A DNA stretch of 33,127 nt, from NCBI GenBank assembly GCA_020053475.1, contig JAGVNC010000098.1, forward strand, positions 1-33,127, in the 5' to 3' direction. Below are positions 12,605-27,237 of the stretch, piece after piece (within the stretch, counting starts at the first letter, position 1; every line of letters starts with the position of its first letter). The position numbers were made by a program, and so were the translations under genes. The notes under the pieces were generated by a model that saw only the letters and a program-made list of their open reading frames with translations, was not told the DNA's origin and did not search any database. Origin of the DNA: Candidatus Omnitrophota bacterium. GTDB lineage: Bacteria > Omnitrophota > Gorgyraeia > Zapsychrales > Zapsychraceae.

Positions 12605-12693
12605 GGAGAGGTGGCTGAGTGGTTGAAGGCGGCAGTCTCGAAAACTGTTGTCCGCCGTTTGGCGGACCGAGAGTTCAAATCTCTCCCTCTCCG
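12605..12693 (+). tRNA. tRNA-Ser, anticodon CGA
   Basis: An 89-base class II tRNA. Acceptor GGAGAGG (12605-12611) pairs with CCTCTCC (12686-12692), discriminator G. Loop CTCGAAA gives anticodon CGA (reads UCG). The variable arm is a long GC stem (GTCCGCC-GTTT-GGCGGAC). The 5' half is nearly identical to tRNA-Ser(UGA), so the two are probably duplicates. CCA is not encoded. Confidence 0.95.
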
Positions 12694-12836
12694 TTTTAAT
12701 ACAATGGATTGGCCAAATCCTCCCGCAAAAAAGTATTTTTTGCGGGACTAATCCTGGACAAATCTTTGATTTGTCCAGGGCAGCCTCTCCGTTTGATATA
12801 ATGCGGATTGGCCAAATCCTCCCGCCAAAAAGTATT
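12686..12836. repeat. Partial duplication of the tRNA-Ser 3' end and flank
   Basis: The segment 12686-12737 (CCTCTCCGTTT, then GGATTGGCCAAATCC, then TCCCGC and AAGTATT) is repeated at 12784-12836 with few differences, a 98-bp period. Copy 2 carries the acceptor 3' strand without the rest of a tRNA, so it is either a tRNA relic or an attachment-site-like duplication. Confidence 0.65.
12721..12780. repeat. Two-hairpin REP-like element, diverged copy
   Basis: Two perfect hairpins in tandem: CCCGCAAAAAA/TTTTTTGCGGG (12722-12732 and 12736-12746, loop GTA) and CCTGGACAAATC/GATTTGTCCAGG (12753-12764 and 12768-12779, loop TTT). The layout TCCCG-stem-CGGGA-n-AATCC-stem-GGG matches the elements at 24996 and 27113, though the stem sequences differ. 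No T-run follows. Confidence 0.6.
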
Positions 12837-12966
12837 ATTGAATCTTTTTCTCATCCCTAAGTCTTAAAAAATTCCTCCCTAAACGTGCTTTTTCCCCAAA
12901 TAAAGTGTATACTTACACTCAGTGCGCTGTAATATTTATAATCTTATTGTTAGATAAGACCAATCA
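12837..12966. other. Upstream region and promoter of the giant gene
   Basis: TATAAT at 12937-12942 is a candidate -10 box, with no good -35 box. AGTGTA/TACACT (12905-12910 and 12915-12920) is a 6-bp inverted repeat just upstream that could bind a regulator or activator. No Shine-Dalgarno sequence precedes ATG 12967. Confidence 0.4.
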
Positions 12967-15900
12967 ATGATGAAAACAAAATCCCGTTTTTCACCAATTT
13001 TTCGTTCTTTTGTGTGGGGGGTCATGATGACCTTCAGTGGCACCACTGTTTTGCCCGCCCCTGCCTTTGCCCAAAGTGCTTATATTCTGAACTTACCCGC
13101 CCCCGGGACGATGGTCCAACCAAGTCCGTTATTTTATCCTCCAGTGATTAAAGGGGTTACAATTGATCCGCAAGACCCGTTCCGTTTTAACTTCATTGTG
13201 GATCGGGGAAATGTTCCTTTGGAAGGAGAGCAATTACGCCAGGAAATTAACAAATTGGTCAAATATTTCCTGGCTTCGCTCACCGTCCCGGAAGATGAAT
13301 TATGGGTCAACCTTTCGCCTTACGAAAAAAACCGGATTATCCCTGAGACGTTCGGCCAAACCGAAATGGGCCGCGACTTGTTGGCGCAAGATTACATTCT
13401 TAAGCAAATTACCGCTTCGCTCATTTATCCTGAGAAAGATTTGGGGAAAGCTTTCTGGGCCAAGGTCTACCAAAAAGCCCAGGAGAAATATGGGACAACC
13501 GACATTCCTGTCAATACATTTAATAAAGTCTGGATTGTCCCTGACAAGGCGGTTGTTTATGAGAATAATGGGGGTGCGTTTATCGTTGATAGCCATCTGA
13601 AGGTGATGCTTGAAGAAGATTATTTGTTAGTGGCCAGTCGCCAGCCATCAGTCTCCGGCGACCGGGCACTGGTCACTGGCGACGATCAGGAAGATATCAC
13701 GATTTCAACGCAGATCATCCGGGAGATCATCATCCCCGAATTGGAAAAGGAAGTCAATCAGGGCAAAAACTTTGCCAATTTACGACAGATTTATTCTTCG
13801 ATGATTTTGGCGTTTTGGTATAAAGATAGCTTAAAAGAGAGTTTATTGAATCGAGTTTACGCCAATCAAAGCAAAATTAAGGGCGTGGATGTCGAAGATA
13901 AGGAAATCAAACAAAAAATTTACTCCCAGTATCTAGAGGCCTTTGAGAAAGGCGTTTACAATTACATTAAAGAAGATATTGATCCTGCCACTCAGGAGAT
14001 GATTCCCCGCAAATATTTTTCTGGTGGATTTGCTTTTAACGAAACCCGAATGGCTATAACTGCCGATAGAATTACCGGCGATATCGATCAGTTGCCGCCT
14101 GCCGAGAGCGCCATGATTGCCAGGGCCAGAATTCCTTCCGATCCCCGTTTTCCGTTTGTTCGAGCAGCGGTCGCTGTGTCAGAGGTAGGGCCATTAGCCA
14201 GCCGTCGTGGGATGCGCCAAGCCGAACAAGAGGGTTCTTTGGAGGGTGCCGCGGCGATGATTTCTGCACCAAGTATCGTTTGGAGTTTGAATCAAGAACA
14301 GAGAGGGGCATTGGCGCAACGCTTGGATATTGTCCAAGAACGTCTAAGGCAAGGGTATACCTTTAAGATAGCTTTTCAGGATCTATCGGACATTTTACAC
14401 GGAGAATTATTTACTATTGAAGAGAGTGGACGAATTGCTAGCTTATTCAACGTCTCTTTACTGGATCGGGGGATCATTTTGAATGAGACAAGTGTTAATT
14501 CTTTGACAGGGATTGTATCCGAGATCGACGAATTTGACAGAACTCCTGAATTAACGGCCGGAGTCAAATCATTTATTACTTCGTTAAGGCGAGCGTTACA
14601 TCCCAACTTTACCTCATTGAGTGATTTTTATAAAGCTTACCAGCAAGCCTTGGCGGAAGATTCGACAGAAACAGAGACTTTTGCTTCTGCTTTGCATTTC
14701 CCGGAGACAGTCCTTAATCTTACAATGCGTTCAGGACCCAGCCGACAAATAATATTTGATGGGTTTGGCGGGGAGGGGGAAAGTATTATGGGCCATGATG
14801 TAAGAAACCATGACCTGCTTGTGGTTATTTCCTCAGAAGATATTGTCCGGATAACCGTTGACGCGGCGATGATCACAGCCAAGACAGCGGCCCAGCTTGC
14901 TTTAGCCGCCGCCTTGGCTTGTCCGGGCTGTTCTTCCATGCCCGTGGCGCCGACGCCGGAAATCAGGGCGGCCGATCCCAAAGCCATGGACCAATACGTG
15001 CTTGAGTTATTCGATTATATTAACGGCCCGTCGAGCTTAAGGAAACGCGAAGAGATTGTCCGCACCATCGTTCTTTTAGGCCCTGTCGCTCTTCCGGCTT
15101 TACAGGGAGTGATGGAAGAGGAAGGCGTTTTAGCGATGGGAAAAAGAGATCTCGCTCAAAAGTACATTAATTTGATTCAGTGGACAGGGTGGTTAAAGTC
15201 TCCTTTTTTTGTTGAAGTATTGGAAGGGGTTCAAAATTTGGAGAAGAGTCAAGGCGGATTTACAGGATGGAACAATGGGCAAGGATATCCCGAGGATCTT
15301 CAAATTCGCTATTGGTTCGGCCGGAAAAATTTAGGGAAATTGGCGGGTTTTGCAGAAGAGGCCGATCAATTTTTACTGGATGAGGGGATCGACATCTTAA
15401 CGCAGGCGTCCAAAGATTCGACGGTTAACTGGAGCGCGGAAGATGATCCGCGCGATTATTTGACGAAAATCGGGGCTTATCCCGGAATCAGCGAAGATGT
15501 CCGCAAAAAAGCGCAAGAGGCTTTAGAAGCCGTGGATTCGGCTATGGCATCTAATACTGTTTATGAGATCCGGTATGAAAAACAGAGAGAAAGAGCATTT
15601 GAAATCCTGGAAGCCTTCAAAACAGAGGGCAATGTTTCCGGTGACGCGGCCGAAGAGTTGGGCGGTTTGCTTGTTCTGATCAATTACGGCGAGGGGAGTG
15701 AAGACCAGGCGATTAAAATTGAAGGTTATCAAAGGAAATTATTGGGATTTAAATTTGGAGCTGAAGAGGGCGATCGTTATTATATGCCGTTGCGTGGCCA
15801 GGTAGGCCTATATTTGGTTAACGATAATTCTCTCGTCTTACAGTTACCTGAGGCGACGTACAATATTGTTATAGAGACTCAAGGAGAAGGAGAAGAGGAA

Positions 15901-18582
15901 GAAATTGTTGGTGTGACGGCGACCCGGGTTCCCCGCATCGAAAAGAATCAAATCGAAGAGCCCCAAAGTGACGTGAAAGCCGTTAAGACAGAAGGGTTTG
16001 TCTATAAAATTGTCGAACCGGAGCATATCTCTGAGGCTTTTGATTTCTTAGAACAATTTTATTTAGCCCGTCCGGAGCATCGTACCGGCAATGCCGCCCG
16101 TCCGTTAAAAACAAGGATGTTCCGGGACACATTTGAAGAGGATGTGAGTTTAAAATTTGACCGCAAACTGCTTTTAAAATACATTGGAGCGCTTGGGGTT
16201 TATACGATGCTTGAAAATCGTAATGCCGTATTGTTCTTTGAGGGCGAAAATACTCTTATTCTGCAAACAAGAGGAGAGGCATTTAGGATTGAGAGGATCA
16301 GGCGCAGGCAGGGAGGAGACGACTTTTTTGAATATTATACTGTATTCATTCAGCCCATCCCTCCGGAACGCATTGCCCCCAACTTCAGATACCGGGCAGG
16401 AAAGATTGATCCCAGGGTCCCACAAGTTCGCGAATTAAACTCTTACGCGGATGTTGACAGGGCTTATTCCATCTTAAGGCAATTCATGAAAACTAATGAA
16501 ACACAACTCGAAGGAGCAGCGGCTGATCTAAAGGTTAAATTAGATTTTATTAAAGTCCCTCAGCAAGATGCCGATATCACTTATGAGGGAAAAACACTTT
16601 TGGCCCGGGGAAAAAGGAGCCAAGGGGACCAATTCTATGCGATCGACCATCCTAATTTGACTGTCTATTTGCAGGACAATAATACGGTTATTATTCAGAA
16701 TAAGAAAGTTACATTCCGTGTAAAACAGGAGAAATCAGGAATTAGCGTGCAGGTTATCCATACGATCCCTGAGGCTAATATTAGGCGATTAATCAAGGCC
16801 CAAAGTGATCAAGAATTGTCTACCTATGCATTGATTAAACAAATGGCATCTCATCGCCAGAGCCGTGATATCATCCTGCGTACTCTCATTGAACTGGGCC
16901 GTCGCCGTGACCCTGCCTCCTGGGATGCCATGTTAAACGTTTTAAATACGACAAGATCAGAGGTTGTGGTGTCCATCGCCCAAGAAGCCCTTTATCACAT
17001 GGATAAAAATATCTCGGGAGATTCTGCAAACTTTAAGTCATTGACCAAGGCATTAAAAATGACTCCGGCCAATGATGATGAGGCCGTCAAACTACTTAAA
17101 TCCATTGTTTTAGCAAGCCTTACTGGCAACAAACGTTTTATTAGTCAAATCGAGGACATTATCAAGAGAGTCAATCATGGCATTATTTTGCAGGTGGGCC
17201 AGGCGGCCCTCTATCATCTTGGAGCTACCCGGGAGCTCTCGAATGTTGAGATGGGCGAATACGCGGAGTTCATCGATAAGTTGGAAGATGCCCCCGAAGA
17301 ACCTGCACAACGGGCTGAAGTTTTAAGAAAGATTATTGCCTTAGGTCTGTCCCAAAATAAAGCGGCGGTCGAAATCCTTGAGCAGGTTTTAGAATTTGAT
17401 GAAGAGAGTTTTGTCGCGGCGGCTCAAGCAGCATTGTATTATGTTGATCAAAAAGTAAGATACGTTGAAGAAAAAAAAGATCTCCTGGAACAGCTTGATT
17501 TTGATGAATCCAAAGAGCCCAACGCGTGGAGAAATTCGGATTTTACCGATGATTTTATAGGGACAACGGTCGATTTTATTTATGTGAACCATGCGACTAA
17601 GCAAGAGGAAAATGCGAGAGGGATTTTTAAAGGGTATGATCCGCAAAGACGGACATTTCAAATTTTGGTTGAGGGTGAAGAAGCGCCTTCCGATTTTACT
17701 TATGGATCTTGGGGCAATCAAATCCTTGATCTGTACCCTGAGGGGTTTTCCCCCTTCGATATCGCCGCGCGTGTCATTAAATTGGGATTGACCGCGGACC
17801 CGAATGTCAGTGATTCTCTTTTTGATATGGTCGAGTTATTCAGCGACCCTGTTGTTTTGCGAACAGCCCAACGGGCGCTGTATCGTCTCTCCCAGCAAAA
17901 GACTGTTCAGGGTGGTGAAACGCAGGACAGCGCCATGATCGCCCGCAACCTGTTGATAGAGTATATGCATGCCATGGCAGACGATAGCCCCGCCAGCATC
18001 AATGCCGTGTTAGCGCAAATAGACAACGAGGACCCGGATGTCGCAGTTCCTGTGTTAAAAGTGATGATGCAAAGTGAGCGACCGGATGTTGCCGTCCAAA
18101 GTATGAGGCGTATGGCTCGGTTGTTAGAAGACAATTCACCTTTTTTGCATAATGGTGTGGGGAGTGATGTTGAGGCTATTTTGTCTCAAAATTCGATTTT
18201 CGCGAATCCTGTTCTTGGCCCTGAGGCGGCAAAAATTTTGGCTCTTTTTGATGATGATGGGCCGGCGGATGATTCGGGAGAGGATGATCGTTTTCCAATT
18301 GACAACCGGTTTGACGACGCCATGGTGACACAAATGGATACAACCGTAACAACTTCATCCCTTCCCCGACGCGAGGGAGGGATCAATTTAAATCCCGCCT
18401 TGTTGGACATGCAAATCAAGCGCGATCCCCATGGCATCCCCTTGCCATTGCCTCAGCAACCGTTGGAAACGATGAAGATCGAAGGATTCATCCCGATCAT
18501 CATTGAAATTACTCCGATTTTCACTGTCCCAATGTTGTTGGGCGAATCTGAAAAGAGCGCCGAGCCGCTGGCTTCGTTGTAA
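12967..18582 (+). CDS. Giant exported multidomain protein, Omnitrophota-type
   Basis: This 1871-residue protein has unknown function. Residues 1-36 are a signal peptide ending AFAQ. Residues 37-365 form the module I associate with Omnitrophota (NLSPYEKNRIIPE, FGQTEMGRDLLAQ, NKVWIVPDKAVVYEN, PRKYFSGG). A hydrophobic lipobox-like segment (638-656, Cys652 and Cys655) lies mid-chain. Three diverged copies of a domain of about 110-130 residues start near 873, 1020 and 1158. HEAT-like units sharing A-x-x-ALY span 1290-1500, plus one near 1635. The C-terminal module GGINLNPALLDMQIKRD..GIPLPLPQQPLE starts at 1804. The linker motif (D/E/A)-x-AM recurs six times. No catalytic motif was recognised. ATG 12967 and ATG 12970 are both possible, without a ribosome binding site. 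A scaffold or surface role is only a guess. Confidence 0.9.
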   Translation: MMKTKSRFSPIFRSFVWGVMMTFSGTTVLPAPAFAQSAYILNLPAPGTMVQPSPLFYPPVIKGVTIDPQDPFRFNFIVDRGNVPLEGEQLRQEINKLVKYFLASLTVPEDELWVNLSPYEKNRIIPETFGQTEMGRDLLAQDYILKQITASLIYPEKDLGKAFWAKVYQKAQEKYGTTDIPVNTFNKVWIVPDKAVVYENNGGAFIVDSHLKVMLEEDYLLVASRQPSVSGDRALVTGDDQEDITISTQIIREIIIPELEKEVNQGKNFANLRQIYSSMILAFWYKDSLKESLLNRVYANQSKIKGVDVEDKEIKQKIYSQYLEAFEKGVYNYIKEDIDPATQEMIPRKYFSGGFAFNETRMAITADRITGDIDQLPPAESAMIARARIPSDPRFPFVRAAVAVSEVGPLASRRGMRQAEQEGSLEGAAAMISAPSIVWSLNQEQRGALAQRLDIVQERLRQGYTFKIAFQDLSDILHGELFTIEESGRIASLFNVSLLDRGIILNETSVNSLTGIVSEIDEFDRTPELTAGVKSFITSLRRALHPNFTSLSDFYKAYQQALAEDSTETETFASALHFPETVLNLTMRSGPSRQIIFDGFGGEGESIMGHDVRNHDLLVVISSEDIVRITVDAAMITAKTAAQLALAAALACPGCSSMPVAPTPEIRAADPKAMDQYVLELFDYINGPSSLRKREEIVRTIVLLGPVALPALQGVMEEEGVLAMGKRDLAQKYINLIQWTGWLKSPFFVEVLEGVQNLEKSQGGFTGWNNGQGYPEDLQIRYWFGRKNLGKLAGFAEEADQFLLDEGIDILTQASKDSTVNWSAEDDPRDYLTKIGAYPGISEDVRKKAQEALEAVDSAMASNTVYEIRYEKQRERAFEILEAFKTEGNVSGDAAEELGGLLVLINYGEGSEDQAIKIEGYQRKLLGFKFGAEEGDRYYMPLRGQVGLYLVNDNSLVLQLPEATYNIVIETQGEGEEEEIVGVTATRVPRIEKNQIEEPQSDVKAVKTEGFVYKIVEPEHISEAFDFLEQFYLARPEHRTGNAARPLKTRMFRDTFEEDVSLKFDRKLLLKYIGALGVYTMLENRNAVLFFEGENTLILQTRGEAFRIERIRRRQGGDDFFEYYTVFIQPIPPERIAPNFRYRAGKIDPRVPQVRELNSYADVDRAYSILRQFMKTNETQLEGAAADLKVKLDFIKVPQQDADITYEGKTLLARGKRSQGDQFYAIDHPNLTVYLQDNNTVIIQNKKVTFRVKQEKSGISVQVIHTIPEANIRRLIKAQSDQELSTYALIKQMASHRQSRDIILRTLIELGRRRDPASWDAMLNVLNTTRSEVVVSIAQEALYHMDKNISGDSANFKSLTKALKMTPANDDEAVKLLKSIVLASLTGNKRFISQIEDIIKRVNHGIILQVGQAALYHLGATRELSNVEMGEYAEFIDKLEDAPEEPAQRAEVLRKIIALGLSQNKAAVEILEQVLEFDEESFVAAAQAALYYVDQKVRYVEEKKDLLEQLDFDESKEPNAWRNSDFTDDFIGTTVDFIYVNHATKQEENARGIFKGYDPQRRTFQILVEGEEAPSDFTYGSWGNQILDLYPEGFSPFDIAARVIKLGLTADPNVSDSLFDMVELFSDPVVLRTAQRALYRLSQQKTVQGGETQDSAMIARNLLIEYMHAMADDSPASINAVLAQIDNEDPDVAVPVLKVMMQSERPDVAVQSMRRMARLLEDNSPFLHNGVGSDVEAILSQNSIFANPVLGPEAAKILALFDDDGPADDSGEDDRFPIDNRFDDAMVTQMDTTVTTSSLPRREGGINLNPALLDMQIKRDPHGIPLPLPQQPLETMKIEGFIPIIIEITPIFTVPMLLGESEKSAEPLASL
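13637..13683. repeat. Word-type quasi-palindrome inside the giant gene
   Basis: GTCGCCAGCCATCAGT (13637-13652) pairs with ACTGGTCACTGGCGAC (13668-13683), 13 of 16 positions. It is translated as ASRQPSVSGDRALVTGDDQ, a low-complexity loop inside the conserved N-terminal module. The same words (CGCCAGT, CTGGCGACC) fill the non-coding gap at 27176-27222. Confidence 0.55.
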
Positions 18583-24975: not shown

Positions 24976-25111
24976 AGTTCGTAGTTCGTAGTTGGTCCCG
25001 TGGAAGGCTTCGCCTTCCCGGGATTGAATCCCCGAAATCGCAAAACGATTTCAGGGGATAGTTCGTAGAAAATTTTGTTTTTACTCCGAACCCCGAACTC
25101 CGAACTACCAA
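24976..25111. repeat. Word-type quasi-palindrome with a nested REP-like element
   Basis: The left arm AGTTCGTAGTTCGTAGTTGG (24976-24995) pairs with degenerate GAACT/CCGAACT words ending ACTACCAACT (about 25087-25113). The left arm starts at the base after the stop codon and the right arm ends just before AAAAGGAG of the mscS-like gene. A two-hairpin element occupies the loop. Confidence 0.7.
24996..25058. repeat. 63-bp two-hairpin REP-like element, copy 2
   Basis: Stem 1 is TCCCG-T-GGAAGGC, loop TTC, GCCTTCC-CGGGA, one bulged T. Stem 2 is CCCC-GAAATCG, loop CAAAA, CGATTTC-A-GGGG, one bulged A. It matches 59 of 63 bases of the copy at 27113-27175. Confidence 0.8.
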
Positions 25112-25125
25112 CTAAAAGGAGAACC

Positions 25126-26112
25126 ATGTTAAACAGTAGTTTTAAAAAAACAATCCTGTTGCTTTATCTACAGTTTTTTGTTATCGTATGTCCCGTTTTC
25201 AGCCAAGAGCCCGTGCCAGTGAATGCGACGGCCCCGGCGCAAGTCGTCGTGGCCCAAAATGGGGCGCACTCGATTTCGGGTGTGGCCAACGAAAAATGGA
25301 GCACAGTTAAAAAAATGTGGGATATCGTCATCGAATTTATTGTGAAGTACAGTTTCCAGGTTTTAGGCGGGATCATTGTCCTTATTGCCGGATGGTTCCT
25401 CGCTCGATTTGCCGCAAATTTTATTCAAAAATTCCTCGCGCCCTATCATCTCGATGTGACGGTTTTAAAATTTATTACGGGAGCGGTCAATCTCCTCGTC
25501 ATGGCATTTGCCGTGATCGTTGCGTTGGGTAAATTCGGCATTGAAATCGCTCCCTTAATCGCCGGGATTAGCGTCATCGGTTTTGCCACAAGCTTTGCGC
25601 TGCAAGGGCCACTGTCTAATTACGCGTCGGGGGCAACACTCATTTTCACGAAACCTTTTAAAGTTGGGGATATCATTGAGGTGGTCGATGCCATCGGAGA
25701 GGTCGCCGACATGAAGCTTCCCCGCACGGAAATTAAGACCGTCGATGGGGAAACCATTGTGATCCCCAATAAGCATATCATCGGAGAAGTCATTCACAAT
25801 CACGGCACCTACAAGCGTGTCGATATTAACGTGGGGGTTGGTTATCAGGCTGACGTGCAGAAGGCCATTGATGCCGTCAAGGATGTTCTTTTAAAGGACA
25901 CCCGCATCACGCGTGAAAAGCCGGCGAAGGTGGGTATTTCGGAATTCGGAGATTCAAGTATCAATATTTGTGTGCGTCTTTGGTGCAAGCAAGACCAATA
26001 CTGGGACGTATTGTTTGACACCAATAAAAATATTTTGTCGGCGTTTAAGAATAATGGCATTGAGATTCCTTTCCCGCAGCGCGATGTCCATGTGTATAAG
26101 GAACAAGGTTAG
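25126..26112 (+). CDS. MscS-family mechanosensitive channel
   Basis: This 328-residue protein should release small solutes on osmotic downshock. The start at ATG 25126 is fixed by AAAGGAG; the frame stays open upstream but those codons come from the repeat. A signal-peptide-like segment (1-27, ending FSQ) is followed by membrane segments at about 68-92, 114-136 and 141-170. The pore helix region GISVIGFATSFALQGPLSNYASG (from 147) and the beta domain FTKPFKVGDIIEV, TVDGETIVIPNKHIIGEVIHN are typical MscS. The minimal three-segment form is the E. coli MscS type. It ends 10 bp before the AsmA-like gene. Confidence 0.93.
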   Translation: MLNSSFKKTILLLYLQFFVIVCPVFSQEPVPVNATAPAQVVVAQNGAHSISGVANEKWSTVKKMWDIVIEFIVKYSFQVLGGIIVLIAGWFLARFAANFIQKFLAPYHLDVTVLKFITGAVNLLVMAFAVIVALGKFGIEIAPLIAGISVIGFATSFALQGPLSNYASGATLIFTKPFKVGDIIEVVDAIGEVADMKLPRTEIKTVDGETIVIPNKHIIGEVIHNHGTYKRVDINVGVGYQADVQKAIDAVKDVLLKDTRITREKPAKVGISEFGDSSINICVRLWCKQDQYWDVLFDTNKNILSAFKNNGIEIPFPQRDVHVYKEQG

Positions 26113-26122
26113 GGAGACTCGT

Positions 26123-27091
26123 ATGAAAAAATGGCAAAAGATACTGATTATTGTTGTTGTGGCCCTTGTCGCGTTATCCATTATTAAGAATTTTGTTATT
26201 AAGACAGCTATCACGTCGATCGGATCAAGCGTCCTGGGCGCACCGTTAACAATCGGCCATTTTTCTTTAGGGATCGTGGCACAGAAGGTAAAAATTAAAA
26301 ACTTGCGCGTGTATAACCCGCCGGGATTTCCCAGCGAACCGATGGTGGATATCCCTGAGGCGGGGGTTCATTTTGATGTCTTTGCTTTGTTGGGGGGTAA
26401 ATTGCATTTGCCTTATATTGTTTTCAATCTCAAGGAAATGGTCGTTGTGAAAGACAAGAATGGCAAATTGAACGTCGATGCGTTGAAAATATTTGAGGAG
26501 AAGTCGAAAGATCCGAAAAAAGATGAAAAACCCGACGCTAAAGAAGGCAAAGCCCCGGCCATGCAAATCGATGTGATGAAATTAAATATCGGCCGCGTCA
26601 TTATGAAAGATTATACGAAAGGCGATGAGCCTTCGATCTTGGTCTATGAAGTCGATTTGAAAGATAAAACATTCAAAAATATAACAAGTCCTCAGGAGTT
26701 GGCCACGGTCGTAATGGTTCAGGGGTTGGGCCCAACGGCCCTGAAAGGAGCCAAGGCGTATGCCGCGGCAACTCTTTTGGGTGTTGGCTTTTTGCCGGCC
26801 GGTGTGGCCGGAGTTTTCATGGGCAAGGACCATGCCACTCAGGTATTTTCTCAATCAACGGAACGCCTTTATCAAACATCGCTTGAAGTCCTGGGGAAAA
26901 TTGGCCAGGTGACTGAAGAGAACAAAACGTTGAAAGAAATTAAAGGAAAAGTTGACGGCGCGGACATTACCATTAAAATTGTTCAGTCACCGGAACATAA
27001 AACCGACGTCACGGTGGCTGCGCGCAAAATGATGATCCCCAAGCCTGAGTTGGCCGGAGGGGTTTTGTATCAAATCGCTGAAAAGCTGTAA
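26123..27091 (+). CDS. AsmA-like membrane-anchored protein
   Basis: This 322-residue protein has one N-terminal membrane anchor (about 5-23) and a long periplasmic part. The start ATG 26123 follows AGGGAG; longer versions of the frame overlap the MscS gene and would bury the anchor. Residues about 25-150 (GAPLTIGHFSLGIVAQKVKIKNLRVYNPPGF, LKEMVVVKDKNGKLNVDAL) resemble the N-terminal domain of AsmA/DUF748 proteins, which line the envelope and are linked with outer-membrane lipid transport. The middle has a Lys/Asp-rich spacer (about 135-155), then a hydrophobic stretch LGVGFLPAGVAGVFMG. It is much shorter than true AsmA (about 600 residues or more), so a bridge spanning the periplasm is unlikely. 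Confidence 0.7.
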   Translation: MKKWQKILIIVVVALVALSIIKNFVIKTAITSIGSSVLGAPLTIGHFSLGIVAQKVKIKNLRVYNPPGFPSEPMVDIPEAGVHFDVFALLGGKLHLPYIVFNLKEMVVVKDKNGKLNVDALKIFEEKSKDPKKDEKPDAKEGKAPAMQIDVMKLNIGRVIMKDYTKGDEPSILVYEVDLKDKTFKNITSPQELATVVMVQGLGPTALKGAKAYAAATLLGVGFLPAGVAGVFMGKDHATQVFSQSTERLYQTSLEVLGKIGQVTEENKTLKEIKGKVDGADITIKIVQSPEHKTDVTVAARKMMIPKPELAGGVLYQIAEKL

Positions 27092-27103
27092 ATATTAGTC
27101 TAC

Positions 27104-27222
27104 AGTCACCTGTCCCGTGGAAGGCTTCGCCTTCCCGGGATTTAATCCCCGAAATCGCAAAGCGATTCCAAGGGACCGCCAGTGACTAGTTTTTCTGGCG
27201 ACCGACGACTAGCGGCTGGCGA
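27104..27222. repeat. Word-type quasi-palindrome with a nested REP-like element
   Basis: The words CTACAGTCACCTG on the left and CCGCCAGTGACTAG, TCTGGCGACCGACGACTAG and CGGCTGGCGACC on the right flank a 63-bp two-hairpin element. The right arm ends four bases before AGGAGAGAGG of the next gene. The arms are less regular than at the other four loci. Confidence 0.6.
27113..27175. repeat. 63-bp two-hairpin REP-like element, copy 3
   Basis: Same structure as 24996-25058, four base differences, three of them in stem 2. Its terminal TCCCG and GGGA are kept. Confidence 0.8.
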
Positions 27223-27237
27223 CCTTTAGGAGAGAGG

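Follow-up and report, generated by a model that had tools for sequence, protein, structure and literature searches.

The 63-bp sequence that occurs twice in the DNA shown above is probably a non-autonomous, precisely inserting inverted pair of bulged hairpins, similar to REPINs and BIMEs, that spreads to G^T steps (A^C when read on the other strand). The window, i.e. the whole stretch of 33,127 nt that was analysed, is contig C16 of a 2.03 Mb Candidatus Omnitrophota genome; the statistics given below were drawn from contig samples and from whole-genome searches. The features discussed are the following.

12721-12780, + strand: probable diverged relative of the element, frame TCCCG..CGGGACTAATCC..AGGG, stems without bulges, adjoining tRNA-Ser
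13632-13683, + strand: empty word palindrome, lacking the element, within ORF 12967-18582
24976-24995, + strand: 5' (GT) arm before copy 1, AGTTCGT AGTTCGT AGTTGG, whose last G forms the left side of the G^T insertion point
24996-25058, + strand: element copy 1, TCCCG(T)GGAAGGC-TTC-GCCTTCCCGGGA, linker TTGAA, hairpin 2 TCCCCGAAATCG..CGATTTC(A)GGGGA
25059-25068, + strand: GT arm resumed after copy 1, TAGTTCGTAG, in phase with the preceding words once the element is removed
25083-25113, + strand: 3' (AC) arm of the copy 1 palindrome, ACTCCGAACCCCGAACTCCGAACTACCAACT
27096-27112, + strand: words of the 5' (GT) arm that precede copy 2, TAGTCTACAGTCACCTG
27113-27175, + strand: element copy 2, 84.7 bits, hairpin 2 partly decayed
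27176-27189, + strand: words of the GT arm that follow copy 2, CCGCCAGTGACTAG
27195-27223, + strand: 3' (AC) arm of the copy 2 palindrome

The element belongs to a dispersed family. The covariance model places it at about 44 sites in the genome (a similarity search at about 40), with sizes from 62 to 66 nt; 25 of the 63-nt copies have at most seven differences from the consensus, and copies at unrelated loci may be only one or two differences away from it. The two window copies, when recounted, differ at four of 63 positions, the 59/63 identity given in the initial annotation. The consensus is made of hairpin 1 (TCCCG-T-GGAAGGC/GCCTTCC-CGGGA), a palindromic linker TTTAA and hairpin 2 (TCCCCG-AAATCGC/GCGATTTC-A-GGGGA), with the ends of the element reading TCCC[GC]TG..CA[GC]GGGA. 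Since the one-base bulge of each hairpin stands at position 6 from the outer end whichever strand is read, the two hairpins form a symmetric inverted pair, and the build of the element is REPIN/BIME-like.

Both window copies fold far better than their dinucleotide shuffles, with z-scores of -6.5 (24996-25058) and -4.8 (27113-27175). The covariance model was built from 42 sequences taken from two genera and from other Omnitrophota; 97.5% of the cells in these sequences are paired (the best slid version reaches 63%), and changes on both sides are seen in 12 pairs, where shuffles give 3.7; covariation is present in both stems. Copy 1 scores 87.8 bits with this model. The initial annotation had named a genome-wide copy count and a covariance model as ways to check its REP/BIME-like reading, which a lack of further copies and of covariation would have spoken against; both were found, and the architecture fits that reading in its inverted pair of hairpins, one-base bulges, dispersed and mostly intergenic copies, covarying stems and exact insertion without target duplication. 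Partial copies are present at C92:4439, C20:27198 and C35:20866 (a single hairpin, or the second hairpin lost; two of the three are in words), which suggests decay through loss of one hairpin.

The sequence at 12721-12780, which had also been called a diverged relative, is probably a distant relative of the element: its score of 33 bits (E-value 4e-7, window search with filters off), against 9 bits for the next match in the window, makes that assignment plausible. It lies within a direct duplication beside tRNA-Ser and not in a word palindrome. The duplicated sequence, seen at 12680-12850, is the 3' flank of the tRNA-Ser gene (CTCTCCGTTTxATAxAATGxGGATTGGCCAAATCCTCCCGC), and it contains this relative.

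The usual host of the element is a palindrome made of words. Its left arm consists of degenerate 7-bp words starting with GT (GTCGCTA, GTTCGTA, GTGAATA and variants) and its right arm of their complements. In 427 kb we counted 18 pairs of arms with period 7 in the GT..AC arrangement and one in the AC..GT arrangement; neighbouring periods gave 0-3. About 30 of the 43 copies in this genome are nested in such palindromes, 25 of 27 among those closest to the consensus. Thus the nesting described in the initial annotation is general, but the position assigned to the element there, in the loop, is not: both window copies stand in the GT arm on the 5' side, separated from the loop by one or a few words. 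Pairing of flank with flank, tried as a proof of the loop position, was rejected, as it was seen for seven of 43 elements and for 13 of 60 control points and is therefore not above ordinary intergenic DNA. Because of this result we used a word-phase test instead; pairing between left and right flanks is loose, and the significant signal is the periodicity of the words.

Palindromes and arrays made of other words were seen at C66:36340-36470, C66:38310-38430 (L071) and L083:11425-11476 (GGGTTTA..TAACCC; TTTTGGATTTAGG..; GGTTTAA), and heptamer palindromes seem to be a general type in which the words change. Another two-hairpin repeat (CCCCTCGCTCTTTGCTCGGGGTCCTGAGCGAAAAGCGAAGGA) was seen within or next to word palindromes in C20 near 37490-37535 (L080), at C107:26402-26452 (L221) and in L203 near 11080. 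In the literature searched, which was limited to open-licence papers, we found no description of the heptamer word palindromes or of this element.

The element inserts between G and T with neither duplication nor loss of target bases. If exactly TCCC..GGGGA is excised, identity at a lag of seven across the junction is 64%, compared with 16-36% when the cut is shifted by 1-4 nt; in the sister genus g4 the respective values are 80% and 4-35%. Removal of TCCC..GGGGA thus restores uninterrupted words, which indicates insertion between G and T without a target duplication. Copies of 62 and 65 nt that lie in words are in phase as well, so the phase is not an artefact of 63 being 9 x 7. Nearly all copies in words are flanked by G on the left and T on the right, and the base preceding the G varies among copies. 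The share of copies in word phase is 25/27 for near-consensus copies against 7/16 for diverged ones (p = 0.0007), with 16% for random intergenic points. Younger copies are therefore in word phase more often: the current subfamily targets words, and older copies are mostly in other palindromes.

The orientation of the element to the words is constant within each genus. In g4, whose copies belong to another subfamily and lie in words (AGTCGTA, AGTGGTA) that differ from those of the genus studied here, the step is A^C, i.e. G^T on the opposite strand, and the element is reversed. Two unrelated palindromes are also occupied in g4, one by the same subfamily at ...TTA^CGAGTCGGGG, the other by a related subfamily at ...TTCA^CGAAGTGAATC; the sites in unrelated palindromes of the sister genus read TNA^CGA. 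Insertions in unrelated palindromes imply that what the targets share is the step and not the word. Double nesting was also seen in g4 (L149, L168, L165 and similar loci), in the form TTACCCCGACTCG[element]TAAGATATGGCAAAATT[second element]AATTTTGCCATACTCGTCGGGGTTATCCGC.

The nesting can be followed in three stages within paralogous protein genes. ORF 12967-18582 of the window has paralogues on contigs C13, C53, C77 and C92. In one loop of these genes, words are missing from those on C77 and C92, present alone in the window gene (the empty palindrome at 13632-13683) and joined by the element in those on C13 and C53; the reading frames stay open at all stages. After excision of the element, filled and empty forms can be aligned gap-free over their right-hand 27 bases. 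The paralogues show that the words came first and the element later. A further in-frame case is a chorismate-binding enzyme on C107 (isochorismate synthase, PF00425), in which a stretch of 54 residues stands against nine in the plant enzyme 8w6v, a loop longer by 45 amino acids; the extra segment is composed of words, another hairpin repeat and the element. Three of the approximately 44 copies are in real coding sequence and the others are mostly intergenic. This evidence of nested insertion is unusually clean. To our knowledge, REPs have seldom been caught with a clean empty site.

As to the mechanism, the element may transpose via folded single-stranded DNA, with a trans-acting enzyme, HUH/Y1-like or some other recombinase of single strands, that would recognise the bulged hairpins together with the target step. 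Exposed single strands would allow the two hairpins to form, and folded target strands would come from the word palindromes. The preferred targets are the arms of palindromes, most of all of those built of heptamer words. With MITEs derived from IS200/IS605 the element shares subterminal hairpins, lack of target duplication and a fixed orientation to the target; the target site duplication typical of TIR/DDE MITEs was not seen at its exact junctions. Copies are distributed 14:24 between the replication strands; single-strand transposition would allow a strand bias, and that this one is not significant (p = 0.14) counts against the reading. A wider scheme, which we offer tentatively, is a two-tier system in which word palindromes spread over the order serve as a landing platform and the hairpin-pair element reads them by structure-guided single-strand insertion without RAYTs, the vocabulary changing between genera.

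A classical REP/REPIN family moved in trans by a resident RAYT (TnpA-REP), the mover named in the initial annotation, is a rival that we consider unlikely. The inverted pair of bulged hairpins, its size and its mostly intergenic dispersal would all suit such a family; the genome has three genes resembling RAYTs, which match NF047646 below its cut-off, plus a fragment, and RAYTs are able to act on distant REPs (PMC8266576). However, two of these three genes (L061:1163-1958 and L063:1226-2118) are flanked by unrelated palindromes of their own (AAATAGTGTCTGTCCCTATTTT; TTACGCACCGGGTGCGT), and the element adjoins none of the three, so that the search for a Y1-type RAYT flanked by the same hairpins, proposed in the initial annotation, yielded no gene with these ends. 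No match to the element model was found near the 11 Y1 loci of this and the sister genomes, which are draft and incomplete. A PF01797 search of G079, which has more element hits than any other g4 genome and is 86% complete, gave no Y1 gene. The GTAG/CGTC tetranucleotide tag of the known REP superfamilies is absent as well; the outer flank of the element is a word plus G and the inner flank TTTA/TTAA. Among other candidates, IS110 was rejected as a mover because the sole IS110-like gene (C66) has its own ends and offers no partner, and no complete transposon with the ends of the element was found in the draft genomes searched.

It is rather improbable that the words and the hairpin pair are copied together as a single composite repeat, with the words diverging later. 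The fixed orientation to the words would agree with this, as would the similar inner stems and loops of four or five copies in AGTTCGT words. Joint mobility is nevertheless contradicted by the order of events in the paralogues and by the empty palindromes, which make up more than half of the word palindromes listed. Word arrays of the AGTGGTA type (up to three mismatches) occur in 25/74 genomes of the order, often as +/- pairs 50-90 bp apart, compared with 10/81 genomes for the element, whose named records all come from Candidatus Omnitrophota. The number of words between the element and the loop varies, and the element also enters unrelated palindromes.

To precise insertion of a hairpin pair we also compared a spread of retro type or by replication slippage, like the one proposed for double-hairpin elements in mitochondria; we give it slightly less credit than the composite repeat. 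It would account for two hairpins with no encoded protein and no target duplication (cf. the Allomyces elements as cited in PMC2800124), but no reverse transcriptase was found in this genome or in G003/G079, and the fixed step and orientation are easier to obtain with a target-reading enzyme. Local, non-mobile hairpins kept by selection that acts on the RNA (as a terminator, mRNA stabiliser or processing site) are the least probable reading: the hairpins are strong, with compensatory changes, and 34/44 copies lie between tandem genes, but 87% of neighbouring genes are tandem anyway, orientation to transcription is 17:17, neither window element has a U-run or a terminator-like match, there is no Rfam match (a terminator or riboswitch was rejected on these grounds), and near-consensus copies are found at unrelated loci and in coding sequence.

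The reading that we prefer, precise insertion of an inverted hairpin pair at a fixed step, gains from the periodic target, as each copy in words carries its own proof of exact insertion. With the whole series of paralogues in one genome, from no words through words alone to words with the element, the insertion site, the rule of orientation and the enzyme search become open to direct tests. The heptamer word palindromes are in themselves a common and poorly described feature of the order, able to enter protein genes in frame.

Among known systems, REPINs are inverted pairs of REPs (PMC3116915), and TnpA-REP recognition involves the tag and a base of the bulge or loop, although how REPs are disseminated has still not been worked out (PMC8266576). 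REPINs and BIMEs of Pseudomonas and E. coli (PMC3116915, PMC8266576) resemble the element in the inverted hairpin pair that acts as the unit, the stem bulge, the short linker and the dispersed, mostly intergenic copies; unlike them, the element has neither the tag nor an element-flanked RAYT, and its insertions, always at the G^T step, are in palindromes of heptamer words. The element is thus REPIN-like in build and is assignable neither to the tagged REP families nor to a RAYT. Rickettsia palindromic elements are also present in frame in protein genes; they differ from the element in sequence and length, and most copies here are intergenic.

The nearest precedent is given by REPs inside palindromes. 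The survey of GTAG/CGTC REPs describes three such families, GTAG-15 (Anabaena variabilis), GTAG-23 (T. roseum) and CGTC-1 (H. neapolitanus), with REP units inside other palindromes and, for GTAG-23, empty target palindromes as well (PMC3733652). Each of those families has one target consensus, whereas the untagged element described here uses a changing heptamer vocabulary and several unrelated palindromes. The double-hairpin elements of fungal mitochondria and the hairpin elements of sponge mitochondria (PMC2800124) likewise have two hairpins, encode no protein, leave no flanking duplication and occur also in genes; the likeness drawn here concerns build, and the element differs in residing on a bacterial chromosome and in having symmetric bulges and a word-phased target. 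The host palindromes, in turn, recall the TAACTGA heptamer arrays of Beggiatoaceae and cyanobacteria (PMC4679880), which are intergenic arrays of 7-bp units, some in ORFs, with 'split' sets of related heptamers. Those arrays are direct repeats of one heptamer, whereas the words described here are degenerate, are arranged as a pair of inverted arms and harbour a further element.
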